Shown: positions 1 through 53,850 of the stretch, in pieces
How positions within the stretch are numbered: position 1 is the stretch's first letter
How the letters are laid out: every line of letters begins with the position of its first letter
DNA from: Candidatus Sulfotelmatobacter sp.
GTDB lineage: Bacteria > Acidobacteriota > Terriglobia > Terriglobales > Acidobacteriaceae
DNA length: 64,000 nt
Reading direction: 5' to 3'
Assembly (NCBI GenBank): GCA_036500765.1
Contig: DASYBM010000004.1
Span: 310,001-374,000 of the forward strand
Program-made: the position numbers and the translations under genes
Notes under the pieces: generated by a model
Seen by the model: only the letters and a program-made list of their open reading frames with translations
Databases searched by the model: none
What the model was told of the DNA's origin: nothing

Positions 1-165
1 TTCTCCACGCGCATCGCTGTCCTGAGCCTGTTCGGCATGATGAACTGGATTTATACCTGGCACAACTCCCGCGTGGACGGCGATGCCGCGTCGATTGCCG
101 GCGAAATGGGTGACGTCTTCCTGCGCGGAGTTATGACGAGCACAAAAGCCCGCAAAGAGCGATAA
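1..165 (+). CDS. TetR/AcrR-type transcriptional regulator, C-terminal fragment
   Basis: The window opens inside this gene; only the last 54 codons are present, read in frame 1 to the TAA at 163-165. The pattern FGMMNWIYTWHN followed by an acidic helix and a final FLRG resembles the C-terminal ligand-binding domain of TetR regulators of acyl-CoA degradation genes (KstR2/FadR-like), where a conserved NW-x-x-x-W motif precedes a closing amphipathic helix. The DNA-binding domain is outside the window. It sits 84 bp upstream of, and co-directional with, the acyl-CoA locus, so local control of that locus by a CoA thioester is plausible but inferred. Family assignment rests on one short motif. Confidence 0.55.
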   Translation, partial: FSTRIAVLSLFGMMNWIYTWHNSRVDGDAASIAGEMGDVFLRGVMTSTKARKER

Positions 166-249: not shown

Positions 250-1071
250 ATGGCGACAACGGTACAACCAGCAGCGGGCGAATCCACCAAGCAACTTGTG
301 AACTACCGCACCGACGGCGGGGTGGCGCTGATCGAAATGTGCGATCCGCCCGCCAACACCTACACCTACGAGATGAACCGCCAACTGGACGAGGCGATTC
401 TGAAGGCTCGGATGGACAACGACGTTTATGTGATCGTGATGACTGGCGCGGGAGAGAAGTTCTTCTCCGCGGGCGCGAACATCAAGATGCTGACCAGCGT
501 CGATCCTACCTTCAAGTATTACTTCTGCCTGCACGCCAATGAAATGCTGCTTCGCCTAGAGCACACGCCGAAACTGGTGATCGCGGCTATTAACGGACAC
601 TGCGTGGGCGGAGGACTGGAGATCGCGATGGCAGCCGATCTGCGCATTGCGCGCAAAGAGGCGGGAAAAATTGGCCTGCCCGAAGTGAATCTGGGAGTGC
701 TGCCCGGAACCGGCGGCACGCAGCGGCTTTCGCGCATGGTAGGCAAGAGCAAGGCCATCGAACTGATGGTGACCGGTAACACGTTTTCATTCGAAGAGGC
801 GCAGGAGTTGGGCATCGTAAACGACATCTTCGAGCGCGAAGGTTTCATGGAAAACATCATGGAATATGCCAAGCAGTTCTGCCCGCCCAACAAGGCGTCG
901 AAGGCCGTGGGGCGCATCAAACGCGCAGTACAGACTGGCTGGGAGATTCCGATGGAGTCGGCGCTGGCGGTCGAGCGCGAGAACCAGCAGTTGCTCTTCC
1001 AAAGCGAAGATGCGAAAGAAGGCTTGGCCGCATACGTGGAAAAACGCCCTGCGACCTTCAAAGCGAAGTAA
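250..1071 (+). CDS. Enoyl-CoA hydratase/isomerase (crotonase family)
   Basis: A 273-residue crotonase-fold protein, normal length for the family. The CoA/oxyanion-hole segments GEKFFSAGANIKM (69-80) and GHCVGGGLEIA (116-126) are intact, and both catalytic glutamates of true hydratases are present (E124 and E145 in GLPEVNLG). It should add water to a 2,3-unsaturated acyl-CoA. The start is set by AAGGAG at 237-242, seven bases before the ATG. It is first in a co-directional run with an aldehyde dehydrogenase and a BoxB-like oxygenase, so its substrate may be a ring-derived enoyl-CoA rather than a plain fatty acyl-CoA; sequence alone cannot decide. It is half the length of BoxC (about 550 residues), so it is not that ring-cleaving enzyme. 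Confidence 0.85.
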   Translation: MATTVQPAAGESTKQLVNYRTDGGVALIEMCDPPANTYTYEMNRQLDEAILKARMDNDVYVIVMTGAGEKFFSAGANIKMLTSVDPTFKYYFCLHANEMLLRLEHTPKLVIAAINGHCVGGGLEIAMAADLRIARKEAGKIGLPEVNLGVLPGTGGTQRLSRMVGKSKAIELMVTGNTFSFEEAQELGIVNDIFEREGFMENIMEYAKQFCPPNKASKAVGRIKRAVQTGWEIPMESALAVERENQQLLFQSEDAKEGLAAYVEKRPATFKAK

Positions 1072-1137
1072 GAGTTGGAGTGGTAAATGATCGTGTGGGG
1101 ACGGGCGCCGCCCAGCGAGTGGACAAAAGGAATGTTG

Positions 1138-2601
1138 ATGATCGTACCGAAAGTGAACGTCAAACCCGGCCAATTGCTCATCGACGGGCAATGGATCGGC
1201 AGTTCAAAGAACTTCGACACCGTCAATCCCGCGACGGGTGAAGTATTGACGCAAATTGCGGAAGCATCACCCGCTGATGTCGATCGCGCGGTGGAAGCTG
1301 CGCGCCGAGCCTTCGAAGACCGCAGCGGCGCGTGGCGCAAACTCTCAGCCAGCGAACGCGGACGGCTGATCTGGAAACTCGCCGACTTGGTTGAGAAGAA
1401 TATCGACGAACTGGCCGAACTGGAAACGCTCGACAACGGCAAGCCGATTTTCGAGTCGCGCTACGTCGATATGCCGATGGTGGTCGACGTGTTGCGTTAC
1501 TACGCCGGCCTCGCAACCAAAATTCATGGTGAGACCGTCAACACATTCGACACCGCTTTTACCTATACATTGCGTGAACCCGTTGGCGTGGTCGGACTGA
1601 TCGTTCCCTGGAACTTTCCTCTATTGCTGGCCTCCTGGAAGGTGGGTCCAGCGCTGGCTTGCGGAAATACGATTGTGTTGAAGCCCGCGGAACAGACTCC
1701 GCTGACCACGTTGAAGTTGGGAGAACTCGTCATGGAGGCCGGCTTTCCTGCCGGTGTAGTGAATATTCTCACAGGCGGGCCTGAGACGGGCAAAGTAATC
1801 GTTGCGCATCCTGGCATCGACAAGATTGCGTTCACGGGCTCAACCGCGGTGGGGAAAGAAATTATGCGTGGGGCGGCCGACACGCTGAAGCGAGTGACGC
1901 TCGAGCTTGGGGGCAAGTCACCGAACATTGTTTTTGCCGACGCCGATGTCGACAGCGCAGTGAAAGGCGCGATCAACGGCATCTTTTACGGCAAGGGCGA
2001 AGTCTGCAACGCAGGCTCGCGGCTATTTCTCGAAAGCAAACTGAAAGACGAATTTACTGAGAAATTGGTGACGCGCGCTTTGAAGATGCGGCCGGGCGAT
2101 CCACTCGATCCGAAGACGAGGCTCGGGGCCATCGTCAGCCAGGAGCAGATGCAGTCGGTGCTCGGCTTTATCGAAGCGGGCAAAAAAGATGGCGCAAAGT
2201 TGGTTGCCGGCGGCAATCGCGTTGCCGTGGATGGAAACAAAGGATTTTTTCTCGAGCCCACCATCTTCGGCGACGTGAAGAATGACATGACGATTGCGCG
2301 AGAGGAAATCTTCGGTCCTGTGCTCTCAGTATTGACGTTTGACGATGTCGACGCGGTGATCGAACAGGCGAACAACAATCCGTATGGCCTCGCGGCCGCG
2401 GTTTGGACGCGCGACGTGAAGAAGGCGCACACCGTTTCGCGCAGCCTGAAGGCGGGAACCGTCTGGATCAACACCTACGGATTGATGGATGCGTCGCTGC
2501 CCTTCGGCGGGTACAAGAGTTCAGGCTTCGGCCGCGAACTGGGTGCGCACGCCGTGGAGCATTACACGGAACTGAAAACAGTTTGGCTGAATATTGCGTA
2601 A
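1138..2601 (+). CDS. NAD(P)-dependent aldehyde dehydrogenase
   Basis: A 487-residue ALDH-superfamily enzyme that oxidises an aldehyde to the acid. Visible: N159 in PWNF (oxyanion), the general base E256 in TLELGGK, the nucleophile C290 in GEVCNAGSR and the cofactor motif FTGST (232-236). The reading frame is open back to an ATG at 1087, but the extra 17 codons (VWGRAPPSEW...) look like non-coding, repeat-like sequence, whereas ATG 1138 is preceded by AAAGGA at 1125-1130 and gives the usual family N-terminus; 1132 is also possible. Overall it resembles betaine/retinal-type ALDHs, not BoxD or PaaZ, so it could detoxify or process a semialdehyde from the neighbouring aromatic pathway. The substrate is unknown. 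Confidence 0.88.
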   Translation: MIVPKVNVKPGQLLIDGQWIGSSKNFDTVNPATGEVLTQIAEASPADVDRAVEAARRAFEDRSGAWRKLSASERGRLIWKLADLVEKNIDELAELETLDNGKPIFESRYVDMPMVVDVLRYYAGLATKIHGETVNTFDTAFTYTLREPVGVVGLIVPWNFPLLLASWKVGPALACGNTIVLKPAEQTPLTTLKLGELVMEAGFPAGVVNILTGGPETGKVIVAHPGIDKIAFTGSTAVGKEIMRGAADTLKRVTLELGGKSPNIVFADADVDSAVKGAINGIFYGKGEVCNAGSRLFLESKLKDEFTEKLVTRALKMRPGDPLDPKTRLGAIVSQEQMQSVLGFIEAGKKDGAKLVAGGNRVAVDGNKGFFLEPTIFGDVKNDMTIAREEIFGPVLSVLTFDDVDAVIEQANNNPYGLAAAVWTRDVKKAHTVSRSLKAGTVWINTYGLMDASLPFGGYKSSGFGRELGAHAVEHYTELKTVWLNIA

Positions 2602-2609
2602 AGCAGCAA

Positions 2610-2655
2610 TTAGCAGTCAGCATTCAGGCCGTATTGGTGGAATGCTAAATGCTAA
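2610..2655. repeat. Intergenic inverted repeat (hairpin)
   Basis: Arms 2610-2625 and 2640-2655 pair at 14 of 16 positions around a 14-base loop and consist of the words ttagca/gaatgcta. It lies between the aldehyde dehydrogenase stop and the BoxB-like gene. No T-run follows, so it is more likely a repeat element or mRNA processing site than an intrinsic terminator. Two similar word-built hairpins occur at 5156-5211 and 49917-50023. Confidence 0.6.
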
Positions 2656-2705
2656 ATTTTGAGGCTAAAGCTCAGAAGAGTTGCTGCGATAGGGAGTCAT
2701 AGCTC

Positions 2706-3881
2706 ATGCCGGGAAAAGTTGCAAAAATCGGAACTTTTAGCGATTGGATCGGATTGTTCAACGACTGGCGCAAAGATATTGGCGTCAACTCCGAAGATAT
2801 CGACGCCTTTCATTTCGACACGCTCTATGGCGCCATCGATACTGAAGAGATTGAATTCGGCTCGTACCAAGGCCGCCGCAAGTGGGAGAACCTGCGCCAG
2901 ATTCCGACGCAGCAGATGCGCGACGCACTGATGAATATGATCGTGTATCAGGGCGATACGGAATTCGCGAGCGTCGAGCAGCAGCGCAATCTGCTCGAAA
3001 ACGCTCCTACCGAGTGGGACCGCCGCGCCATCACGCGGGTGATGATCGAGGAGATGCGGCACGGTTGGCAGATGTGTGCTCTCCTCGTCGATCATTTCGG
3101 CTACTCCGGCAAAGTCGAAGCGCAGAAGATGCTGGAGCGGCGCGCCTTTGAGAATAAGCGATTGTTGGGCGCCTTTAATGTCGACGTCGACAACTGGATG
3201 GACTTTTTCACCTACACCGACTTCGTTGACCGCGATGGAAAATTTCAGTTACAGATGCTCAAGTATTCCGCATTCGCTCCGCTGGGACGATCCATGTCGT
3301 ACATGCTGCGCGAAGAAGCGTTTCATATGGGCACGGGCAACGACGGCCTGCGGCGGATCGTGGAAGCGGGAGTAATTCCCGCGTGGCTGATTCAGAAATA
3401 TCTGAACAAGTGGATTTCCAGTTCGTATGATCTGTTCGGCACCGACCATTCTTCGTCGGCCCACTGGGCCTATGTGTGGGGCGTGAAGGGCCGCTATGAC
3501 GAACCGAAAAACGATAAAGCGCCGGACCTCGACGACCTGAACGATTACAACCGCAATCTTTATCGCGACGAAGTGGCAGGACTGATCGAACGTTTCAACA
3601 GCGCTCTGCGGGCGGGCGAGCCCAAATTGTATGCACCGGACATCAAATTCAACCGCGCTATCGGCAAATGGGCAGGACAGAAATTCCACGCGCAGACGGG
3701 CGAAGCTCTTGATGACCGTGCGAACGAAGAACACGTAAGAGAATACATGCCTTCCCCCGAAGACAAAAAGCTTCTGCTCGACATCATTAACAACGAAAAG
3801 AAATGGATCGCGGAGAAAACAGGCGCACGCGACCCGCTCTCGACCATTGGAGAAGTACGAAAGTCGGCGATCAACCTGTAG
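2706..3881 (+). CDS. BoxB-like di-iron acyl-CoA oxygenase (PaaA/BoxB superfamily)
   Basis: A 391-residue ferritin-like di-iron protein closest in pattern to the epoxidase subunit of benzoyl-CoA 2,3-epoxidase. The metal-ligand pattern is visible: E86 in QGDTEFASVEQQR, E116-x-x-H119 in EEMRHGWQM, D177 in DRDGKFQL and E204-x-x-H207 in EEAFHMG. BoxB enzymes turn an aromatic CoA thioester into a ring epoxide using O2 and electrons from a reductase (BoxA). No BoxA or PaaE-type reductase is present here. The protein is about 80 residues shorter than typical BoxB (about 475), mainly at the N-terminus. GGGAG at 2692-2695 supports the ATG at 2706. Neighbouring CoA hydratases support a role in aromatic CoA catabolism. 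The exact substrate is inference; a PF05138-type acyl-CoA oxygenase of another specificity is the alternative. Confidence 0.75.
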   Translation: MPGKVAKIGTFSDWIGLFNDWRKDIGVNSEDIDAFHFDTLYGAIDTEEIEFGSYQGRRKWENLRQIPTQQMRDALMNMIVYQGDTEFASVEQQRNLLENAPTEWDRRAITRVMIEEMRHGWQMCALLVDHFGYSGKVEAQKMLERRAFENKRLLGAFNVDVDNWMDFFTYTDFVDRDGKFQLQMLKYSAFAPLGRSMSYMLREEAFHMGTGNDGLRRIVEAGVIPAWLIQKYLNKWISSSYDLFGTDHSSSAHWAYVWGVKGRYDEPKNDKAPDLDDLNDYNRNLYRDEVAGLIERFNSALRAGEPKLYAPDIKFNRAIGKWAGQKFHAQTGEALDDRANEEHVREYMPSPEDKKLLLDIINNEKKWIAEKTGARDPLSTIGEVRKSAINL

Positions 3882-3925
3882 AAGGACGATTTTCAACGCA
3901 GATAACGCCGAATACGCCAAGCGAT

Positions 3926-4714
3926 ATGGGAACCACGTCGATACGTTCAGGATCCAGTCGGCTTCAGTCGGAGTTCAGCCCTCCTGTGGCGCGGATTGTG
4001 CTTCAGCATGCGCCGCTGAATGTGATCGACGTTGCGATGATGGAGGAATTGACGCAATCGCTGGCTGAGATCGAGGCGCGGCAGGATATCGCTGTGATCG
4101 TTTTCAGCGGCGCGGGGAAATGTTTTTCCGTAGGCGTGGATGTCGCCGCGCATACTCCTGATACGGTCGAAGAGATGCTGGCGAAGTTTCACACTGTGAT
4201 TCGTGCTTTGCTGACGACGAAGAAAGTTACGGTTGCGTCAGTGCACGGCTATTGTCTTGGCGGAGGCGCGGAGTTGGCCATGGTTTGCGATATGGCCTAC
4301 ACGGCCGAATCGGCGCAATGGGGATTTCCGGAGATCAAGCTGGGATGCTATCCGCCGGTGGCATGTACGGCGCTGGCTGCGCTGGTGGGGCAAAAGTACG
4401 CTGCAGAACTGATTCTGACCGGCCGCACGATCGACGGCAACGAGGCGAGCGCGATCGGTCTGGCGAATCGGGCAGTGAACGAGCAGGATTTGGACAGCAT
4501 GGTTGAGCGATCGATCGACTCATTGCGGAAAGTGAGTCCCGCAGCTCTGGCCTGTGCCAAAAAGGCTTCTTACGCCTGGGATTCAATGCACTTCGATAAG
4601 GGCCTCGCCCGCGCCGAGCGGATTTATTTCGATGAATTGATGAAGACCGAAGACGCGCAGGAAGGTATTGAGGCTTTCATGCAGAAGCGGCAGCCGCATT
4701 GGAAAGGGAAGTAG
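3926..4714 (+). CDS. Crotonase-family hydratase resembling cyclohexa-1,5-diene-1-carbonyl-CoA hydratase
   Basis: A 262-residue protein with the crotonase fold. The segments FSVGVDVAAHTPDTVEEML (67-85) and GFPEIKLGCYPPVA (133-146) follow the pattern I recall for dienoyl-CoA hydratases (Dch/BzdW/BamR), including the GV(D/E)V...H element after the oxyanion hole and PPVA after the second acidic residue. E116 and E136 are the expected catalytic positions. Dch hydrates the diene made when benzoyl-CoA is reduced. Here it follows an oxygenase, so it may act on a ring-reduced or epoxide-derived intermediate. The frame is open back to 3803 inside the preceding gene; ATG 3926 gives a family-length protein, though no clear ribosome site precedes it. 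Confidence 0.68.
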   Translation: MGTTSIRSGSSRLQSEFSPPVARIVLQHAPLNVIDVAMMEELTQSLAEIEARQDIAVIVFSGAGKCFSVGVDVAAHTPDTVEEMLAKFHTVIRALLTTKKVTVASVHGYCLGGGAELAMVCDMAYTAESAQWGFPEIKLGCYPPVACTALAALVGQKYAAELILTGRTIDGNEASAIGLANRAVNEQDLDSMVERSIDSLRKVSPAALACAKKASYAWDSMHFDKGLARAERIYFDELMKTEDAQEGIEAFMQKRQPHWKGK

Positions 4715-4749
4715 GTGGAGTTTGGCTCACGCTGAGGGCCGGTTAAGCG

Positions 4750-4793
4750 GAGATCTTTCGCTTCGACTGAAAGACGCCTCCGCTCAGGATGAC
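4750..4793. repeat. Short dispersed repeat fragment (GAGATCTTTCGCT type)
   Basis: The 13-mer gagatctttcgct at 4750-4762 recurs at 10380-10392. At this copy it continues into a ...ctccgctcaggatgac end, a word order I associate with dispersed intergenic repeats of acidobacterial genomes. It lies between the hydratase and the rhodanese gene. Only two copies are in the window, so repeat status is tentative. Confidence 0.4.
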
Positions 4794-4823
4794 CGCGTAG
4801 CCCCGCGGAGATTTTAGTAAAAG

Positions 4824-5147
4824 ATGGATTACGAGATCACGCCCGAAGACGTAAAAGGCAAAGTGGATGCCGCAGAACCGTTCACTTTGCTCGACGTGCG
4901 CGAATCGTGGGAGTTTGAGACCGCCAAGATAGACGGCGCCAAACTGATGCCGATGGGCGATGTGCCGTCGCGTGCGCATCAGGAGCTTGATCCCGATGAC
5001 CACATCGTGGTGGTGTGCCATCATGGCGTGCGCTCAATGAGTGTCACGGTATGGCTGAGGCAGCAAGGTTTCGACAAGGCGCAATCGATGCGTGGCGGCA
5101 TCGATGCCTGGTCGCGACGCGTGGATGGGAAAGTGCCGACGTACTGA
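4824..5147 (+). CDS. Single-domain rhodanese (sulfurtransferase)
   Basis: A 107-residue protein consisting of one rhodanese domain. The active-site loop VVCHHGVRS (63-71) has the catalytic C65 and the C-x-x-G-x-R pattern of GlpE-like rhodaneses; LLDVRESWEF (22-31) is the CH2A motif. Such proteins pass persulfide sulfur to an acceptor. It sits directly upstream of the molybdenum hydroxylase genes, whose cofactor needs a terminal sulfido ligand in this enzyme family; no XdhC-type insertion protein is visible, so a role in cofactor sulfuration is conceivable but is inference. No convincing ribosome site precedes the ATG. Confidence 0.85.
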   Translation: MDYEITPEDVKGKVDAAEPFTLLDVRESWEFETAKIDGAKLMPMGDVPSRAHQELDPDDHIVVVCHHGVRSMSVTVWLRQQGFDKAQSMRGGIDAWSRRVDGKVPTY

Positions 5148-5155
5148 AAGCGCTT

Positions 5156-5211
5156 TTGGCCTTTGGCTCTTAGCTTTTAGCCAAATCGGCAAGCTAAGAG
5201 CCAAGGGCCAA
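5156..5211. repeat. Near-perfect 21-bp inverted repeat upstream of hcrC
   Basis: Arms 5156-5176 and 5191-5211 pair at 20 of 21 positions with a 14-base loop. It ends 16 bases before the hcrC start, so it would fold just ahead of that gene's translation start and could limit or insulate it from the rhodanese transcript. There is no T-run, so it is not a classical terminator. The arms are made of aagctaagagcca-type words, like other spacer hairpins in this window. Confidence 0.75.
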
Positions 5212-5227
5212 TAGCCTAGAGCCATTC

Positions 5228-5761
5228 ATGAAAAAAGAACTCATAGAGCTCCGCATCAACGGCCGCAGGCACGAGGTTGCCATCGAGCCCAGCGCGCTGC
5301 TGCTCGACGTGTTGCGGCAGGAACTGCAACTCACGGGGTCCAAGCGCGGCTGCGATGATTCGTCGTGCGGCGCCTGTACTGTGCTGGTTGACGGTGTGGC
5401 CATGATGTCGTGCACGCTATTGGCAGCGAGTTGTGAAGGGCAGCAGATCACCACGGTCGAAGGAGTCAGCCAGCACGGCGCGCTGGCGGCGATCCAGAAA
5501 GCCTATGGCGACTGGGGCGGAGCGCAATGCGGCTACTGTACTCCGGGCTTCATGATGACGGTGAAGGCGCTGTTGGCGGAGAATCCTGATCCCTCCGAGG
5601 CCGACGTTCGCGCCGCGCTGAGCAGCAATCTTTGCCGGTGTACCGGCTACAGCCAGATGTACGCAGCGATCAGATCGGCAATTTTGGCAGAGCAACGAGA
5701 GATAGCGGCGCGCGACGTTGCAGCGCTGGCGACAGCGGATTCCTCGCTGCGCTCGGAATGA
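5228..5761 (+). CDS. hcrC: 4-Hydroxybenzoyl-CoA reductase-like, 2Fe-2S subunit
   Basis: A 177-residue ferredoxin-like subunit of the xanthine oxidase family. The plant-type [2Fe-2S] loop uses C42, C47, C50 and C62; the C-terminal four-helix domain carries the second cluster with C101, C104, C136 and C138 (QCGYCTPGF and CRCTGY). It relays electrons between the FAD/4Fe-4S subunit and the molybdenum site. Subunit identity as HcrC rather than a generic XdhC/CoxS-like protein comes from the downstream hcrB signature. The last residues (DSSLRSE) are encoded by a 27-bp dispersed repeat (5738-5764) that also supplies the stop codon, so the tail is probably not ancestral. Confidence 0.82.
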   Translation: MKKELIELRINGRRHEVAIEPSALLLDVLRQELQLTGSKRGCDDSSCGACTVLVDGVAMMSCTLLAASCEGQQITTVEGVSQHGALAAIQKAYGDWGGAQCGYCTPGFMMTVKALLAENPDPSEADVRAALSSNLCRCTGYSQMYAAIRSAILAEQREIAARDVAALATADSSLRSE

Positions 5762-5764
5762 CAA
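5738..5764 (-). repeat. Dispersed repeat R1, copy 1 (27 bp)
   Basis: This 27-base stretch is identical, in inverted orientation, to 51028-51054. It spans the end of hcrC and supplies its stop codon. The core, read on the - strand, is cattccgagcgcagcgagg. Two perfect 27-mers 45 kb apart and on opposite strands are not expected by chance and mark a dispersed element. Confidence 0.85.
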
Positions 5765-5793
5765 AGCTCGGGATGGACACGCAGGATCATGAA

Positions 5794-8487
5794 ATGAGTA
5801 ATGATTTTTCCATCATTGGCAAGCCCACCGCCATGGTCGATGCGGCCCAGAAAACGACTGGCGCCGGGAAATATACCGACGACCTCAGCGTGCCCGGCAT
5901 GCTGGTCGGGAAGATTCTGCATTCGCCATATCCCCATGCTCGCATCAAGCGGATCGACACCAGCCGTGCAGAGCAACTCGAAGGTGTGGTTGCGGTCGTC
6001 GTGGGGAAGGACGCTCCCAATCCTTACGGCATTCTTCCCGTCGGACACGACGAATATCCGTTAGCACTCGACAAAGTTCGTTATGTCGGCGACAACATCG
6101 CCTGCGTGGCGGCCATTACGGAATCGATCGCCGAAAGAGCCCTCGAGTTGATCGAGGTTGAGTACGAAGTTCTGCCGGCTTACTTCGATCCCGAAGAGTC
6201 GATGAGGGCCCAAACCGATCTCATCCACGATTCGAAGCCGGGCAATTTGGAGAAAGACTATCACCACGTATTTGGCGATCCCGATAAAGCTTTTGCCGAG
6301 GCCGATCATATAGCAGAGGCGCGGTTCATTGCCAATGAAGTCACGCATGCGGCGATGGAGCCGCATTCCACGCTGGCATCGTTCGAACTCGATCCGCATT
6401 CCGGCAAGCCTGGACGCCTGACCGTGTGGTCTTCGACTCAAGTGCCATACTACTTGCAGCACAAGTTGTCGCTGGTGCTGGAAATGCCGATGCAGCAGAT
6501 TCGCGTGATCAAGCCACTGGTGGGCGGAGGATTCGGCGGCAAGAGCGAAGTGATTCCGCTTGAGATTATTGCGGCCGTGGCTGCGCGCAAGGCTCAGGCT
6601 CCGGTGAAAATCACATACACACGCGAAGAAGTATTCTGGGCGCATCGCGGACGGCCCCGCACCATCATCGATCTCAAGACTGGCGTGAAGAAGGACGGCC
6701 GCATTACCGCTGTGAAGGCGCGCGTAGTGCAGGATGGCGGTGCTTACTGCTCTTACGGCGTGGTTACGATTCTGTATTCGGGCGCGCTGCTGGGCGCGCT
6801 CTACGACATCCCGAACATTCAGTATGACGGCTATCGCGTGCTCACGAATAAGCCCGCCTGCGGCGCCATGCGCGGCCACGGCACCGTGAATGTTCGCTTC
6901 GCCTTCGAATCGCAGTTGGACGAATTGGCGAATGCGATCGGAATGGATGCGGCGGAAATCCGGCAGCGAAATTTATTGCAGCCGCCATGCATCACGGTGA
7001 ACGGCTTGCGCGTGCGAAGTTACGGGCTGCCAGAATGCATTGAGAAGACGGTCGAGCGTTCCGGCTGGAAGGAGCGCAAGGGCAAACTGCCCAGGGGACG
7101 CGGGTTGGGCATCGCGTGCAGCCATTACGTGAGCGGTGCGGCGAATTCGATTATTCGTTCGGACATGCCGCATTCCACGGTCAACATCAAGATCGATCGC
7201 GATGGCGGCGTGGTGGTCTATACGGGCGCATCGGAAATTGGCCAGGGATCCGACACGATGACGGCGCAGATCGCCGCCGAAGTGCTGGGATGTTCGCTCT
7301 CGCGGGTGCGCGTGATTGCAGCGGACACCGATCTGACGCCGATTGATATTGGTTCTTATTCGAGTCGCGTGACCTTCATGGCGGGGAATGCTACTTTGCG
7401 GGCGGCGACGGAAGTGAAGAAACTGATTGCGGCTGCGGCGGGGAAGAAGATGGGATGCTCGGTGGAAGATTTGATTTTTCGGGATGATGTGGTGAGCAAG
7501 AAAGCTCATGGTTTCATCGGCGAAAGCGAGCCCGCGCCAACTCCGCGCGGGCCGGACCCTTCGGCTTCGCTCAGGGCAGGCTCGCGAGGGCGGCCGTCCC
7601 CACATGATTCTTCTTCGTCACATCCTTCTTCGTCACTACATGATTCGTTGACCGTCCACAATACAGAGCAAGCCTCCGTCAGCGGACGCGTCGAAGGACA
7701 GATTCTTCGCGGATCGTTGCAGCAGAAGCGCAAGGAGGAAGGGCCGAAAGATCGGATGACTTTCGAAGAGGCCGTCGTCGCCGCCATCGACTTTCATGGA
7801 GCACTCACCGGCACGGGATCTTATGCGCCTCCACAGGAAGCGCGCGGCGGTAAGCACAAAGGTGCCGGAGTGGGCCCATCGCCGGCATATTCATACTCGG
7901 CGCAAGTCGCAGAGGTCAGCGTTGACGAAGATACCGGTGAAGTCACCGTGCACAAAGTCTGGGCGGCGCACGACTGTGGGCGCGCGCTTAATCCGGTTTC
8001 CGTGGAAGGGCAGATCATCGGTTCGGTTTGGATGGGCATGGGGCAGGCTCTCACCGAAGAGATGATTTGGAAGGATGGCATGCTGATGAATCCCGGGCTG
8101 CTCGAGTATCGCAGTCCATCTTCAATCGAGTCGCCAGAGGTCGAGCCGATTATTGTGGAGAGCGTCGATCCGGAAGGGCCGTTCGGCGCGAAGGAGTGCA
8201 GCGAGGGATCTCTGGCCGCGACGATCCCGGCGATTGCGAATGCCATTTACGATGCGGCGGGCATACGCTTGCACGAGGCGCCGTTCACGCCGGAAAGAGT
8301 GCTGGCTGCGCTGCGCGCCAAGAAAAATGCCAAGGCGATAAACATGACTGAGGGCGTCGACTCGACTGCGCCAATGCATTTTCGCGAACATGGTGGCGCG
8401 CTCTGCTTCAACGGTAAGGGACCGGATCGGCACGCCGGCGATCCGTCGCGACGCGAGAATGCATCGTTGGCAGGGGGCGCGGATTGA
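5794..8487 (+). CDS. hcrA: 4-Hydroxybenzoyl-CoA reductase-like, molybdopterin subunit with repeat-derived insertion
   Basis: An 897-residue molybdenum-binding subunit. Motifs: GGGFGGK (about 246-252) and the GAMRGHG arginine loop, EIGQGSDTM, SYSSRVTFMAGNA, GAGVGPSPAYSYSA, and near the C-terminus GAKECSEG with the conserved catalytic glutamate. The SYSSRVTF and VGPSPAYSYSA segments match my recollection of HcrA, which reductively removes the phenolic hydroxyl from 4-hydroxybenzoyl-CoA. ATG 5794 begins the family N-terminus; the open frame further upstream is only overlap with hcrC. Residues of about 574-654 are an insertion rich in Ser, Pro, Arg and His, part of it encoded by dispersed repeat R2 and short ttcttcgtca repeats. 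The stop overlaps the TTG start of the next gene. A general aldehyde/xanthine dehydrogenase is the alternative. Confidence 0.8.
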   Translation: MSNDFSIIGKPTAMVDAAQKTTGAGKYTDDLSVPGMLVGKILHSPYPHARIKRIDTSRAEQLEGVVAVVVGKDAPNPYGILPVGHDEYPLALDKVRYVGDNIACVAAITESIAERALELIEVEYEVLPAYFDPEESMRAQTDLIHDSKPGNLEKDYHHVFGDPDKAFAEADHIAEARFIANEVTHAAMEPHSTLASFELDPHSGKPGRLTVWSSTQVPYYLQHKLSLVLEMPMQQIRVIKPLVGGGFGGKSEVIPLEIIAAVAARKAQAPVKITYTREEVFWAHRGRPRTIIDLKTGVKKDGRITAVKARVVQDGGAYCSYGVVTILYSGALLGALYDIPNIQYDGYRVLTNKPACGAMRGHGTVNVRFAFESQLDELANAIGMDAAEIRQRNLLQPPCITVNGLRVRSYGLPECIEKTVERSGWKERKGKLPRGRGLGIACSHYVSGAANSIIRSDMPHSTVNIKIDRDGGVVVYTGASEIGQGSDTMTAQIAAEVLGCSLSRVRVIAADTDLTPIDIGSYSSRVTFMAGNATLRAATEVKKLIAAAAGKKMGCSVEDLIFRDDVVSKKAHGFIGESEPAPTPRGPDPSASLRAGSRGRPSPHDSSSSHPSSSLHDSLTVHNTEQASVSGRVEGQILRGSLQQKRKEEGPKDRMTFEEAVVAAIDFHGALTGTGSYAPPQEARGGKHKGAGVGPSPAYSYSAQVAEVSVDEDTGEVTVHKVWAAHDCGRALNPVSVEGQIIGSVWMGMGQALTEEMIWKDGMLMNPGLLEYRSPSSIESPEVEPIIVESVDPEGPFGAKECSEGSLAATIPAIANAIYDAAGIRLHEAPFTPERVLAALRAKKNAKAINMTEGVDSTAPMHFREHGGALCFNGKGPDRHAGDPSRRENASLAGGAD
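7557..7604. repeat. Dispersed repeat R2, copy 1, inside hcrA
   Basis: The block cccttcggcttcgctcaggg and the bases after it, up to a ggccgtccccaca end, shares its core (cccttcggc, gctcagggcaggctc) with 50799-50850. Here it is read in frame and encodes PSASLRAGSRGRPSP. It is followed at about 7609-7640 by the word cttcttcgtca, repeated imperfectly. Confidence 0.75.
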
Positions 8488-9467
8488 GCCTTCCCGAATT
8501 CAGACTGCTCCGCCCAGATACCATTGAGGCCGCCGTCGGATGTTTGACCGAGCATGCGGGAAATATTCGGGTGCTGGCGGGTGGAACGGATCTGATTCCT
8601 TCCATGCGGCAAAAGCTTTTCGAGCCGCAGTTTGTTCTCGATCTGCGGCGCGTTGCCGCGATGCGCGGAATCAAGCCGCTTCCCGATGGCGGCATTGAAA
8701 TTGGAGCCCTGACTGCGCTGCGCGCCATTGAGCGCTCCAATTATCTGCGCCGGCATTTTCCCGTGCTGACTGAGGCGGCCGCAACCGTGGCATCGCCGGT
8801 GCTTCGCAATATGGGCACGATCGGCGGTAACATCTGCCTCGACACCCGCTGCCTGTGGTACAACCAGTCGCTGACCTGGCGAAAAGGCTGCGGCTTTTGC
8901 ATTAAGAAAGACGGCGATCTTTGCCACGTGGCGCCGGGCGGGAGCAAGTGCTGGGCGGTTTTCTCCGCAGATACTCCGCCCGCATTGTTGTGCCTGAACG
9001 CGGAAATTGAAATTGCCAGCGCCGCTGAGACGCGCCGCGTTTTATTGCGCGATTTCTACACCGGGTTGGGGGACAACTATCGCAAGCTGCAACCCAACGA
9101 ATTGGTCACGCGCGTTTTCCTGCCGGCATCGGCTGCGGACTATCGGGGCGTGTACCGCAAGCTGCGAGTTCGCGGATCGATCGATTATCCGCTGGCGGGA
9201 GTTGCCGTTGTGATCAAGCGATCGAACGGTCACATCGCAGATGCGCGCTTAGGCATCACCGCCGTGAATCCCGCGCCCTTGCTGGTGAAAGGCGCCAGCG
9301 AGTTACTCACAGGCCAAATGCTCGATGAAGCGCTGGCTGCGGCCGCCGGCGATTTGGCCGCCAAGACCGCGAAGCCGCTCACCACATCTGCACTGACACC
9401 CGAATATCGGCGCGAGATGATTCGCGTCTTCACCAAGCGCGCGGTGCTGGCGGCGGCAGGGAACTGA
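8484..9467 (+). CDS. hcrB: 4-Hydroxybenzoyl-CoA reductase-like, FAD and [4Fe-4S] subunit
   Basis: A 327-residue FAD subunit (LAGGTDLIP, 31-39; NMGTIGGN, 109-116). What sets it apart from ordinary xanthine dehydrogenase FAD subunits is the insert at about 117-160, which carries C123, C139, C147 and C156 (plus C118 and C136). In 4-hydroxybenzoyl-CoA reductase this loop binds an additional low-potential [4Fe-4S] cluster, and the 16-8-9 spacing here is the one I recall for the Thauera enzyme. That makes HCR the best assignment for the whole complex. Translation starts at TTG 8484, overlapping the hcrA stop codon, with GGGGG at 8473-8477 as ribosome site; the two are translationally coupled. Confidence 0.85.
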   Translation: MSLPEFRLLRPDTIEAAVGCLTEHAGNIRVLAGGTDLIPSMRQKLFEPQFVLDLRRVAAMRGIKPLPDGGIEIGALTALRAIERSNYLRRHFPVLTEAAATVASPVLRNMGTIGGNICLDTRCLWYNQSLTWRKGCGFCIKKDGDLCHVAPGGSKCWAVFSADTPPALLCLNAEIEIASAAETRRVLLRDFYTGLGDNYRKLQPNELVTRVFLPASAADYRGVYRKLRVRGSIDYPLAGVAVVIKRSNGHIADARLGITAVNPAPLLVKGASELLTGQMLDEALAAAAGDLAAKTAKPLTTSALTPEYRREMIRVFTKRAVLAAAGN

Positions 9468-9524
9468 GTCCTCTGTTATTCTTCTGGCGGCTGTAAGTCG
9501 AACCGAGCAACCGCAAGCCAAAGC

Positions 9525-10367
9525 ATGATCACCGACTGCCACATTCACATTCAGCCCATGGAAATGTTCAAGCCCCATGCGCTTGAGCTGATGAAGAAGA
9601 AACGCGCGAACTTCGACCAGATCGTCGAGTTCTGCCGTTCGCCCAAGGCATTTCTCAAGTTCATGGACGAAAGCGGCGTTGATCGCGCCATGCTTATCAA
9701 TTACGTGGCCCCCGAAGTGATCGGCTTCACCAGCGGAGTGAATCAGTTCGTCGCCGACTATGTGAAGGAGAATCCGAAGCGGTTGCTCTCCTGTGGCAGC
9801 CTGCATCCGCGCCACACCACGAATGTGCTCGCCGACGTGGAGCAGATTCTGCGACTGGGATTGCAGATGATCAAGATTCATCCGCCGCACCAGTTGCTTT
9901 TTCCCAATGATTATCTGAGCGGCGCAAAAGAGCTGGAGATCATTTACCGTGCTGCCGAAGCCAATGGTGTGCCCGTCATGTTCCACACAGGTACGTCAAT
10001 TTTTCCCGGCGCCCGCAACAAATACGGCGATCCGATTTACGTCGATGACGTGGCCGTCGATTTCCCCAAGTTGAAAATTCTGCTTGCCCACGGGGGTCGG
10101 CCGCTCTGGATGCAGACCGCATTCTTTCTGGTGCGCCGGCATCCGAACGTGTATCTGGACATCAGCGGCATTCCGCCGAAGACGCTATTGAAATATTTTC
10201 CGCGCCTCGAGGAAATCGCGCACAAGACTCTGTTTGGGACGGACTGGCCTGGGCCGGGCGTCCCCGATATCAAAAAGAATCTTGACGAATTCAGGGCGCT
10301 TCCGCTCAGTAAAGCCGTTCAGCAGCAGATTCTAACGAAGACCGCGCTGGCGATGTGGCCTGCCTGA
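9525..10367 (+). CDS. Amidohydrolase-2 family metal-dependent hydrolase/decarboxylase
   Basis: A 280-residue TIM-barrel protein of the amidohydrolase_2 (ACMSD-like) family: the N-terminal DCHIHI motif gives two metal-binding histidines, MIKIHPPHQLL and VMFHTGTS carry further active-site histidines, and FGTDWPGPG near the C-terminus has the metal-ligand aspartate. Family members decarboxylate or hydrolyse aromatic and ring-cleavage acids. It starts 57 bp after hcrB on the same strand, so it probably belongs to the aromatic locus. No strong ribosome site is visible, and the substrate cannot be told. Confidence 0.82.
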   Translation: MITDCHIHIQPMEMFKPHALELMKKKRANFDQIVEFCRSPKAFLKFMDESGVDRAMLINYVAPEVIGFTSGVNQFVADYVKENPKRLLSCGSLHPRHTTNVLADVEQILRLGLQMIKIHPPHQLLFPNDYLSGAKELEIIYRAAEANGVPVMFHTGTSIFPGARNKYGDPIYVDDVAVDFPKLKILLAHGGRPLWMQTAFFLVRRHPNVYLDISGIPPKTLLKYFPRLEEIAHKTLFGTDWPGPGVPDIKKNLDEFRALPLSKAVQQQILTKTALAMWPA

Positions 10368-50952: not shown

Positions 50953-53850
50953 TTGTTGACTCCACCGACTGCCGGAGGCGCTGTGACTCCTTCATCCGTG
51001 ACTCGTTCATCCCTACATCCCCGTTCCTTGTCATTCCGAGCGCAGCGAGGAATCTGCTTTTTCTTGCTGGCTGCGACAACCTTCGTCGCCGCGCAGTCGC
51101 CTTCCGCATCCCCCGCCGATCGCCCTCCCATCATGCTCCCTACCAGCAAAATGCTGACCGTCCCCTCCCCTGGCCGCATCGGGAGCACTAACAGCTTTCC
51201 CGTGACGATGGTCGTGAGTCCCGACGGCCATTACGCGGCGTTGCTGAATGACGGCTACGGCACGCAGGAAACTCTGGCGCACCAGTCGATCGCGGTGCTC
51301 GATCTGAAAACAAATCAAATCGCCGACTATCCCGACGCGCGCCTGAGCGACCAAGCCCATCAAAGCTACTTCATCGGTCTAGCTTTCAGTTCGGACGGCA
51401 AGCACCTCTACGCCTCGATGGGTTCGCTCAGCGATCCCACGGGAGCGAAAGCGGGCAACACCGGAAATGGCATCGCGGTCTATAGCTTTTCCCGAGGCAA
51501 GGTTGCGCCTGAGCGCTTCATTCCCATTCCGTTGCAGCCACTCTCGACCGGAAAAAAACTCGCCGTCGGTCTAACCGCTCCTCCGAATATGGCGATTCCA
51601 TACCCCGCAGGGATGGCCGTAATCACCGAGAAGGGCCACGATAAGCTTCTCATTGCGAATAATCTTTCCGACAACGTCGTGCTGCTCGATCCAGCTACAG
51701 GAAAAGTACTCCAGACTTTTGACCTGAGCACGAATGATCTGGTGCCATCGTCGTTCCCCTATACGTGCGTCGCAACTAAAGACGGCCGCCGCGCCTGGTG
51801 CAGCCTGTGGAATGCATCGCAGATTGCGGAACTCGATCTCACCGGCGGCAAGGTCGTCCGCTGGATCAAACTAAAACAACCGGATGATCCTTTAGCAGCA
51901 GGCTCGCATCCCACAGCGATGCTGCTGAGCCGCAACGAGACCGTATTGTATGTGGCTCTATCGAACGTCGATTTGATCGCCGCTGTATCCGCGGCGTCCG
52001 GCACTGTCCCTAGCTACTTCGCGACTGGCACATCCACTCAGAGATCCGCCGGGACGTATCCCACAGCCTTAGCGCAATCGGCCGATGCGAAACATTTGTT
52101 TGCTGCTGATTCCTCGCTAGACGCCGTCGCCGTCTTCGACACAACTCGACCGCACGCCTCTGACTCTGATATGCCCGAGCTGCCGCTGGGTTTTATCCCC
52201 ACCGACTGGTATCCCAGCGCCCTCGCCGTCCTCGGCAACGATCTCCTCATTGCCACCGCCAAAGGCGAAGGTTCCCGCGCCAACAAAGAAATGGGCAAGA
52301 CTTCCTACGAGATGAAACACCGCGACCATCCATACATTCCCACGCTGCTCCGAGGATCGATCGCCCGTCTCAATGTTCCATCTACAATCGAAAAACTTCC
52401 TCAACTCACCGCCGCCGTCGCGAAAGATAATCTCTTCCACAGCGATCCCGGTACGATCACCTTCGCCAGCGGACAGAATCCCATCAAGCACGTCATCTAT
52501 GTGATGAAGGAAAACCGCACCTTCGACCAGATCCTCGGCGACTTGAAAGTCGGCGACGGCGATCCTTCGCTGACCATGTACGGCGCCAACATCACGCCGA
52601 ACGAGCATAAGCTCGCCCTGCAATTCGGCGTGCTCGACAACTTCTATGACAGCGGAGAAGTCTCCGGCGACGGCCACGTCTGGTCAACCGCCGCTATCAC
52701 CTCCGACTACAACGAGAAGACCTGGCAGATCGCCTACCGCGGCAAGGAACGAACCTATGATTTTCAGGGTCAAGTCGCTGAGGAATTCCCGCTGGAGCTC
52801 AATGAGTCCGACGTCGACGATCCCGGCACCGGATTTTTATGGGACAATCTCGCGCGCAATCACGTGAGCTATCGTATTTACGGAGAGTTCGTGAACGCAC
52901 TGTGGTGTACCGGGTACCACGCAGACTCCGCGAAGCCGGGCACCACGCCACCGGAGCAGCAGGCTCGCTGCCCGCGCAAAGAAGTAAAGCCGGGCGACGC
53001 GCTTGCGCCCAACGTCGGAGACCCGCACGCTGGGCCGAGTCCGTGGCCGTGGTCGGTTCCACTCTTCAGCGGAGTCAAGCCAACCAAGGCCGTCCTGCGC
53101 GACCACTTCGATCCACTCTATCCGGATTTCAACACCGACTATCCCGATCAGCTCCGGGTTGACGAGTTTATGAACGAGTTCGGCGCCTACGTTCGCGCCC
53201 GCGACGCGCACGAGGGCGCGCAATTTGAACTGCCGTCGTTCGTCTTACTGTATCTGCCCGACGACCACACCGGGGGCACGCGTCCAAATCACGCGCGCCC
53301 AGCAGCCAATGTGGCAGATAACGACCTGGCGCTCGGCCGCGTGGTCGATGCCGTCTCGCACAGTTCCTACTGGGACGACACCGCAATCTTTGTTCTCGAA
53401 GACGACGCCCAGGACGGCGCCGATCACGTCGACGCGCACCGCTCCATCGCCTTCGTCATCAGCAAATATTCGCCGGGATCGGCCGCGCAGCCCAATGTCG
53501 AGCACCGCTTCTACACCACCGTGAACATGATCCACACGATCGAGACATTGCTCGGCCTTCCACCCATGAATCAGAACGATGCGTATGCCCCGGTGATGAG
53601 CCAAATGTTTTCGGGAGCAGGCAATCAGGAGCCTTACAAAGCGGACAATAGCAACCTGAAGAATGGATTGATCTACGAAATCAATAGGCGCGAAGCCCCG
53701 GGGGCAAGGATTTCGTCGACGATGAACTTCTCCCGTCCCGACGCCGCAGACGCGGCGACTCTGAATCGCGTGCTATGGCGAGACCAAAAAGGCGCAGCGC
53801 CAATGCCCGCGCCGAAGCATACGGTATTCCCCGCAGGAGGAGACGACTAG
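50953..53850 (+). CDS. Exported beta-propeller/phosphoesterase (YncE-like plus alkaline-phosphatase-superfamily domain)
   Basis: A 965-residue two-domain protein. The N-terminal half (about 60-460) is a YVTN-type seven-bladed propeller; the C-terminal half (about 510-930) is a PF04185-like phosphoesterase with VMKENRTFDQILGD, SGEVSGDGHVWSTAA, YLPDDHTGGTR and VLEDDAQDGADHVDAHRS, which hold the metal ligands. It probably hydrolyses phosphate esters outside the cytoplasm, fitting its place after phoU. The start is unusual: TTG 50953 reads through dispersed repeat R1 (SFRAQRGI) directly into the signal-peptide core CFFLLAATTFVAAQ. No strong ribosome site is visible at TTG; a start inside the repeat region is possible. 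Confidence 0.78.
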   Translation: MLTPPTAGGAVTPSSVTRSSLHPRSLSFRAQRGICFFLLAATTFVAAQSPSASPADRPPIMLPTSKMLTVPSPGRIGSTNSFPVTMVVSPDGHYAALLNDGYGTQETLAHQSIAVLDLKTNQIADYPDARLSDQAHQSYFIGLAFSSDGKHLYASMGSLSDPTGAKAGNTGNGIAVYSFSRGKVAPERFIPIPLQPLSTGKKLAVGLTAPPNMAIPYPAGMAVITEKGHDKLLIANNLSDNVVLLDPATGKVLQTFDLSTNDLVPSSFPYTCVATKDGRRAWCSLWNASQIAELDLTGGKVVRWIKLKQPDDPLAAGSHPTAMLLSRNETVLYVALSNVDLIAAVSAASGTVPSYFATGTSTQRSAGTYPTALAQSADAKHLFAADSSLDAVAVFDTTRPHASDSDMPELPLGFIPTDWYPSALAVLGNDLLIATAKGEGSRANKEMGKTSYEMKHRDHPYIPTLLRGSIARLNVPSTIEKLPQLTAAVAKDNLFHSDPGTITFASGQNPIKHVIYVMKENRTFDQILGDLKVGDGDPSLTMYGANITPNEHKLALQFGVLDNFYDSGEVSGDGHVWSTAAITSDYNEKTWQIAYRGKERTYDFQGQVAEEFPLELNESDVDDPGTGFLWDNLARNHVSYRIYGEFVNALWCTGYHADSAKPGTTPPEQQARCPRKEVKPGDALAPNVGDPHAGPSPWPWSVPLFSGVKPTKAVLRDHFDPLYPDFNTDYPDQLRVDEFMNEFGAYVRARDAHEGAQFELPSFVLLYLPDDHTGGTRPNHARPAANVADNDLALGRVVDAVSHSSYWDDTAIFVLEDDAQDGADHVDAHRSIAFVISKYSPGSAAQPNVEHRFYTTVNMIHTIETLLGLPPMNQNDAYAPVMSQMFSGAGNQEPYKADNSNLKNGLIYEINRREAPGARISSTMNFSRPDAADAATLNRVLWRDQKGAAPMPAPKHTVFPAGGDD
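51028..51054 (+). repeat. Dispersed repeat R1, copy 2 (27 bp)
   Basis: Identical to the reverse complement of 5738-5764. It encodes the basic n-region (SFRAQRG) of the phosphoesterase signal peptide; the hydrophobic core starts right at its end. Confidence 0.85.

Follow-up and report, generated by a model that had tools for sequence, protein, structure and literature searches.

A BoxB-type epoxidase, a 4-hydroxybenzoyl-CoA reductase and single-domain crotonases in one acidobacterial operon suggest a BoxC-less variant of the aerobic benzoyl-CoA pathway

Background

The described systems closest to the acidobacterial operon considered here are the Box pathway of aerobic benzoyl-coenzyme A (CoA) epoxidation (BoxA-D, in Azoarcus evansii and relatives), the 4-hydroxybenzoyl-CoA reductase (HCR) of Thauera aromatica, the phenylacetate (Paa) pathway and the class I benzoyl-CoA reductase (BCR) route (Bcr, Dch, Had, Oah). 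The operon occupies positions 250-10367 of a 64,000-nucleotide stretch of contig DASYBM010000004.1 (the whole stretch is hereafter called the window) and is a single operon-like series on the + strand that comprises, in this order, the crotonase ECH1, the aldehyde dehydrogenase ALDH, the di-iron oxygenase BOX, a further crotonase ECH2, a rhodanese, the HCR-type subunits HcrC, HcrA and HcrB, and an amidohydrolase. The window genome (5.04 Mb in 17 contigs, 99.3% complete) is acidobacterial, and its closest named relatives include Candidatus (Ca.) Sulfotelmatobacter. We propose, with a probability of roughly 0.55, that the encoded enzymes constitute a Box pathway variant that begins with a dehydroxylation and in which BoxC would be replaced by a single-domain crotonase.

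With the Box pathway, the operon shares the iron ligands of the di-iron epoxidase and most of the benzoyl pocket, as these are listed in an excerpt of PMC5489048, and the ALDH and the lower-pathway crotonase of the window have close homologs in acidobacterial box operons. It differs in that the window genome has no BoxC, BoxA or benzoate-CoA ligase over the cut-off, the epoxidase is shorter and ~37% identical, and HCR is encoded in the same operon. The window HCR resembles the T. aromatica enzyme in consisting of three subunits, namely a molybdenum-type alpha subunit, a flavin adenine dinucleotide (FAD) beta subunit with four loop cysteines and a 2Fe-2S gamma subunit, but departs from it in the longer variable linker of the alpha subunit, the beta and gamma scores that lie under the name cut-offs, and the operon partner, an epoxidase of an O2-dependent type. 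The Paa pathway handles a CoA-ester ring epoxide with a single-domain crotonase, as is proposed here, and four distant loci with a short BOX carry a PaaG-like crotonase; the window epoxidase, in contrast, is of the BoxB type, and the window genome has no second match of the PaaA type. In genome bins of SAR324, BoxB has been reported together with 4-hydroxybenzoyl-CoA reductase, but there the cluster with BoxB also contains BoxC and a ligase, and the excerpt of PMC4782131 treats HCR as a side route. ECH2 is related to Dch of the class I route, and some relatives carry both routes, whereas the window genome has no match to BCR subunit B (BCR-B) at E<=1e-60. In the open-licence papers searched, we found no description of such a BoxC-less route.

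The epoxidase

BOX (2706-3881, + strand) is a short BoxB-type di-iron epoxidase with the iron ligands E86, E116, H119, D175, E204 and H207. In a profile search against NCBIfam, it matches the BoxB model TIGR03225 (221.7 bits, E 1.7e-65), the sole other match being PaaA at 40 bits, and its nearest solved protein is BoxB (3PER, 3PM5; E 1.7e-48), which confirms the BoxB-like di-iron oxygenase that an initial annotation, made from the letters of the window, had placed here. Assignment to PaaA was rejected because of that low score, and assignment to canonical BoxB was rejected on score, on length (BOX is ~80-110 residues shorter) and on the lack of BoxC.

A survey of 396 genomes of the phylum yielded 122 with a match, of which 106 were binned by identity and length. 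Canonical BoxB accounts for 66 of these genomes, short BOX for 20 and a third BoxB-like clade for 20, no genome falling into two bins; the remaining 16, whose matches are all weak and mostly PaaA-like, were kept out of the bins. Mean identities are 37% between short and canonical, 29% between short and third-clade, and 24% between canonical and third-clade sequences. The alignment of short BOX holds 19 of the 23 places at >=48% identity, with G279:C57, G192, G234 and G376:C198 left out (the genes of G192 and G376:C198 run off their contigs). Twelve canonical rows were extracted (nine phylum loci, L160, L161 and Mycetohabitans), and eight were usable once L031, a fragment, and the mis-framed L024, L026 and L029 had been dropped.

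The excerpt of PMC5489048, whose numbering is used here for the conserved positions, gives E120, E150, H153, D211, E240 and H243 as the iron ligands of BoxB and Q116, T119, S123, F193, F203, F206 and T210 as the benzoyl pocket. All six ligands are identical in 19/19 short BOX sequences, and so are five of the seven pocket residues, Q116, T119, S123, F193 and F203; in the third clade, F203 is replaced by Asn in 10/10. In a midpoint-rooted BoxB tree, with PaaA left out, support of 100/100 unites the short with the canonical rows to the exclusion of the third clade, so that BOX groups with BoxB, a placement that leaves the initial reading of the oxygenase standing. Within this group, canonical BoxB arises from among the short rows, as a long branch next to L050 and L052 (92/99), which makes the short rows a grade; a single BOX clade apart from canonical BoxB was therefore rejected, and 'short lineage' can serve only as a descriptive label. 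The AlphaFold model of BOX is of low confidence (mean predicted local distance difference test score 50.7, predicted template modeling score 0.46).

The third clade, in which Asn replaces F203, probably has another function. In six of its ten loci (L151, L152, L155-L158), GNAT-type and proline dehydrogenase-type genes adjoin the BoxB-like gene, as found by clustering, with the families checked in L155. In G377 (L150, 427-12298), the third-clade gene lies near thiolase, 3-hydroxyacyl-CoA dehydrogenase and ECH1-like genes and near genes like those for the CoA-transferase subunits CTA and CTB described below; given these neighbors, the clade may not be uniform.

Absence of BoxC and the ties to canonical box operons

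The best match to the BoxC model TIGR03222 in the whole window genome is ECH1 itself, at 83.8 bits against a cut-off of 712.3. BoxC exceeds this cut-off in 62 of the 396 genomes, 61 of which have canonical BoxB, and in 0/20 short-BOX and 0/20 third-clade genomes; conversely, 61 of the 66 canonical-BoxB genomes have BoxC over the cut-off, and fragments of BoxC are present in 3 of the remaining 5. BoxA has no match in the window genome (G000) and is over the cut-off in 0/14 genomes searched; because these include three with canonical BoxB and BoxC (G151, G348 and G309), its lack in the window genome may be usual among members of the phylum. The initial observation that BCR, BoxA, BoxC and a CoA ligase are not visible holds genome-wide with the models used, the ligase search being that for the benzoate-CoA ligase family, to the exclusion of other aromatic-ligase families. 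It is the BoxC-less arrangement that is unusual and new.

ECH1 (250-1071, + strand), with both hydratase glutamates (E124, E145), probably acts as an enoyl-CoA hydratase in the lower part of the Box pathway, and a BoxD-like role is proposed for ALDH (1132-2601, + strand; PF00171), whose open reading frame is open from 1087 and probably starts at 1132. In the canonical loci examined, L160 and L161, boxC and boxB are followed first by a crotonase with 60-62% identity to ECH1 and then by an ALDH with 58-61% identity to that of the window, and BoxB and BoxC of L160 are over their cut-offs. ECH1 and the crotonases of L160 and L161 belong to one clade (100/100), which also holds a crotonase of the third-clade genome G377. 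As judged by homology, ALDH and the first crotonase, ECH1, neither of which the initial annotation named, are what tie the locus to the Box pathway. ECH1 was rejected as a BoxC because its match covers the generic crotonase part only and the canonical operons examined carry both proteins.

Candidate crotonases for the BoxC step

ECH2 (3926-4714, + strand) is a Dch-like crotonase and a candidate functional stand-in for BoxC. Both hydratase glutamates are kept, and LGCYPPVA replaces LGxxPGxGGTQRL, a PPVA-type loop as in several Dch-like proteins. It is the best match of the window genome to the Dch model TIGR03189, at 146.8 bits against a cut-off of 292.5, and six generic enoyl-CoA hydratase models score higher, so that the hydratase of the initial annotation holds as a Dch-like crotonase; the BCR-linked Dch of G309 and G285 are likewise under the cut-off (283 and 270 bits). 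ECH2 forms a subclade of its own (100/100) inside a larger clade (96/95) with three BCR-linked Dch, to which it is 35-36% identical. The Dch model served to choose six further rows of the larger clade, and part of this grouping, which does not contradict the proposed placement of the hydratase, is therefore a selection effect.

Four loci, L045, L047, L050 and L052, have ECH3 in place of ECH2, and ECH3 groups with PaaG (98/92). In the hydratase-Glu columns there is no glutamate in the four ECH3 proteins, nor in the Mesorhizobium PaaG row, a difference from the excerpt of PMC4498308, according to which PaaG has one catalytic glutamate. The same excerpt gives two glutamates, as in PaaF, for the active domain of BoxC. 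From the slot and the residues, we infer that ECH2 or ECH3 may fill the place of BoxC.

The 4-hydroxybenzoyl-CoA reductase

HCR is encoded by HcrC (5228-5761), the 2Fe-2S gamma subunit, HcrA (5794-8487), the molybdenum-cofactor alpha subunit, and HcrB (8484-9467), the FAD beta subunit, all on the + strand. HcrA scores 1037 bits against TIGR03194, over the cut-off of 994.6, matches chain A of 1RM6, which we take to be the T. aromatica enzyme, with E 4.8e-249, and keeps the GPFGAKE motif; it probably starts at 5794, and HcrA of one relative begins MSDFSIIG. HcrC matches TIGR03193 (177 bits) and PF01799, and HcrB matches TIGR03195 (302 bits). In the alignment of HcrB to 1RM6 chain B, the four cysteines that are presumably those of the 4Fe-4S loop all align to cysteines, and the loop is also present in relatives; together with the alpha score, this bears out the initial identification of a 4-hydroxybenzoyl-CoA reductase by its extra 4Fe-4S loop. 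After residue ~575, HcrA has a variable linker: at ~7500-7690 of the window, a hypervariable low-complexity segment, different in the five relatives compared, separates two conserved parts.

At an HCR-beta threshold of >=225 bits, which is our own choice (the loop was found by pattern in 12/12 loci tested, from 12 of the resulting 73 genomes), 73 of the 396 genomes have HCR: 15/20 with short BOX (against 58/376 of all others), 33/66 with canonical BoxB, 12/20 of the third clade and 13 with no binned epoxidase. Hence, the joint presence of HCR and a BoxB-type epoxidase in one genome, which the initial annotation had singled out as the unusual point, is a pattern of the phylum (60 of the 73 HCR genomes, which are not independent); in the window family, the two share an operon. 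Only one of the 396 genomes, G308, passes the HCR-beta name cut-off, and it is among the 13 without any binned BoxB-type epoxidase.

Conservation of the locus and links to benzoyl-CoA

Relatives of the locus are represented by the best 80 of at least 551 confirmed, and inference is confined to this phylum; among their names are Ca. Sulfotelmatobacter, Acidobacteriaceae, Terriglobia, Ca. Korobacter and Ca. Angelobacter, and many come from palsa, bog, fen, soil and groundwater. With BOX as the bait, 46 of the 80 loci were taken as complete by flank length or outer marker genes; genes were called with a simple composition-based finder, which missed HcrC in a first test and bcrA in L225. The complete loci contain ECH1 and BOX (46 each), the TetR-type gene (44), ECH2 (43), the DHDPS-family gene (37), the amidohydrolase (34), the rhodanese (33, also in loci without HCR), HcrC, HcrA and HcrB (30, 30 and 29), ALDH (22), CTB (14) and CTA (13). 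HCR and ALDH tend to occur together, with ALDH in 20/30 loci with HCR and 2/16 without. Because it recurs in relatives, the arrangement is not a chance one, and the co-occurrence whose lack would have counted against the initial reading was found.

CTA and CTB are two glutaconate-CoA-transferase-like subunits (nearest solved protein 1POI) that flank ECH2 in some relatives; CTB has, in 5/5 rows, the ENG motif, which we take to be the catalytic glutamate motif. Both are near BOX in L035-L038 and in 13/46 complete loci, and in G257, CTB is at the BOX locus and CTA lies beside HCR ~100 kb away, a split that links the BOX and HCR modules. The window genome has neither CTA nor CTB of the relatives, just one other CoA-transferase pair, and the two were accordingly rejected as a needed part. 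In the four ECH3 loci, clustering shows BOX to be accompanied by genes for a NuoF-like protein and a thioredoxin-like 2Fe-2S ferredoxin, which in L047 lie on the opposite strand; the family assignments were confirmed for L045, L046 and L052. This pair is a plausible electron supply, possibly an NADH-driven reductase for a di-iron epoxidase.

A link to benzoyl-CoA comes from G131, a 90% complete draft, in which bcrC, bcrB, bcrA and bcrD share one run on one strand with a short BOX (L049, 8826-15845). Two genes separate bcrD from BOX, the first GNAT-like and the second small and weakly similar to a di-iron repair family. The bcrC, B, A and D products score 503.6, 704.8, 562.2 and 339.2 bits against cut-offs of 421.2, 486.6, 578 and 312.9, so that A just misses; the succession of bcrCBAD and BOX ties BOX to benzoyl-CoA. 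BCR-B is over its cut-off in 33/396 genomes, 7 of them with short BOX, and in the six other than G131, the two genes are on different contigs. Contig C14 of G121 (L225), which carries BCR, has oah (TIGR03200 over the cut-off) and no Dch-model match at E<=1e-25; the best Dch match of this genome is ECH2 of the BOX operon.

Proposed pathway and alternatives

Gene content, conservation, lineage, residue conservation and the absence of BoxC were obtained by calculation, and each of the following reactions is inferred from them. HCR and ferredoxin would remove the hydroxyl of 4-hydroxybenzoyl-CoA to yield benzoyl-CoA, as the enzyme family and the cofactor loop suggest. With O2 and two electrons, BOX is predicted from its iron ligands and pocket to convert benzoyl-CoA to the 2,3-epoxide, whose fast exchange with the oxepin is discussed for BoxB in the excerpt of PMC5489048. 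ECH2 here, and PaaG-like ECH3 in some distant relatives, would then open the ring, to judge by slot and residues. The close homologs in canonical box operons suggest that ALDH would oxidize the resulting semialdehyde and that ECH1 would hydrate an enoyl-CoA en route, by beta-oxidation, to beta-ketoadipyl-CoA. As a guess, the initial CoA ester could come from side-chain oxidation of p-coumaroyl-CoA. HCR-fed epoxidation, as initially envisaged, is thus a reasonable route, the order of its reactions being conjectural.

In a broader and more tentative form, to which we would give somewhat less than even odds, Acidobacteria would possess a BoxC-independent Box pathway: short BoxB would make 2,3-epoxybenzoyl-CoA, a single-domain crotonase (ECH2 in Terriglobales, PaaG-like ECH3 elsewhere) would open the ring, and HCR from the same operon would feed an O2-sensitive, ferredoxin-driven dehydroxylation into an O2-dependent epoxidation at low oxygen. 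Acidobacterial metagenome-assembled genomes (MAGs) from peat, including SbA1, which carries BOX and HCR (L076), are described in an excerpt of PMC6018796 as those of facultative anaerobes with oxygen respiration, a capacity that fits such a low-oxygen route.

A number of observations weigh against the BoxC-less Box variant. The BOX score is far under the TIGR03225 cut-off of 499.1, which is why we call the protein BoxB-type and not BoxB; HcrB is under its cut-off of 404.6, and HcrC is under its own of 257.8, its top match being a gamma model for an aldehyde dehydrogenase (180 bits); and all phylum counts rest on related, non-independent genomes, which makes the Fisher values computed from such counts too optimistic. 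Since none of the three HCR genes is present in 16/46 complete loci and ALDH is missing from 24/46, both are dispensable at the locus. ECH2 is missing from three complete loci (that of SbA1, in which HCR is kept, L108 and L112), and 9/20 loci of the phylum short-BOX set, some of them cut by contig ends, have no ECH1- or ECH2-like gene near BOX. The sole crotonase present in every complete locus is ECH1 (46/46), which may alternatively be the ring opener. BoxC is said, in the excerpt of PMC4498308, to be needed to relieve product inhibition of BoxB. As the neighbors of the third-clade gene in G377 show, ECH1-, CTA- and CTB-like genes also occur next to epoxidase genes other than short BOX. With the models used, neither a BOX reductase nor a CoA-activating enzyme was identified in the window genome, where the best match to the benzoate-CoA ligase family reaches 233 bits against a cut-off of 375. 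Finally, of the 19 short BOX sequences, 17 have Tyr and 2 retain Phe at position 206, and T210 is Val or Ile in 19/19, whereas the usable canonical rows keep Phe and Thr (8/8), so that a substituted benzoyl-CoA is possible as the BOX substrate.

These two substitutions, along with the loci without HCR and the missing ligase, would suit a route for a substituted aromatic acid in which the substrate of BOX is some other aromatic CoA ester, such as a hydroxybenzoyl-CoA that Tyr 206 holds in place, and that of HCR is either the BOX product or a further compound. We consider this rather unlikely, given that the other pocket residues are unchanged, that ECH1 and ALDH have close homologs in canonical boxCB operons and that BOX stands beside bcrCBAD in G131. 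Alternatively, ECH2 could be a true dienoyl-CoA hydratase of a ring-reducing route and the operon a shared hub, with HCR and ECH2 serving anaerobic benzoyl-CoA reduction and BOX the aerobic branch. BCR-B over the cut-off in G073 and G121, the grouping of ECH2 with BCR-linked Dch and the three Dch-model matches of G121, of which ECH2 is the best and none is on the BCR contig, point this way; however, the window genome, G084 and G210 carry ECH2 with no BCR-B match at E<=1e-60, G257 has, besides ECH2, a second Dch-like gene that belongs to a BCR-like operon, and the identity to the three BCR-linked Dch is 35-36%, which makes the hub improbable. It is less probable still that the genes are together for regulation only and BOX acts on a non-aromatic cyclic or acyclic enoyl-CoA: the proline dehydrogenase- and GNAT-type neighbors in 6/10 third-clade loci indicate that BoxB-like enzymes outside benzoate metabolism may exist, and several distant short BOX genes have no Box-type neighbors, but such neighbors are present in the window family, and F193 and F203 are kept throughout short BOX, unlike F203 in the third clade.

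If the BoxC-less Box variant is correct, non-orthologous enzymes would serve as alternatives at the ring-opening step of aerobic benzoyl-CoA breakdown, a search for BoxC would reveal this pathway only in part, and relief of BoxB-type product inhibition without BoxC would become testable. A group of mostly uncultured acidobacteria of peat and soil would then be able to use 4-hydroxybenzoyl units from lignin while oxygen fluctuates.

Other features of the window

Between ECH2 and HcrC lies the rhodanese domain protein (4824-5147, + strand), whose best NCBIfam match is the C-terminal part of MoeZ and which is possibly a sulfur donor for the molybdenum cofactor. The amidohydrolase (9525-10367, + strand; PF04909) is proposed to be a hydrolase or decarboxylase of a ring-derived intermediate. 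Upstream of ECH1, the 3' end of a gene read from its sequence as a TetR-type regulator occupies 1-165 (+ strand; start at L002:19449, upstream of the window), and a DHDPS-family gene lies further upstream.

A search for repeats in the HCR genes and their surroundings turned up a single inverted pair, a weak one. A dispersed repeat occurs at 5734-5772 and, on the opposite strand, at 51020-51058 of the window (~90% identical over 39 bases); the former copy lies just before the HcrA start and supplies the last codons of HcrC, and similar copies are found in relatives at L034:6155-6181, L034:11613-11652 and L037:8816-8846.

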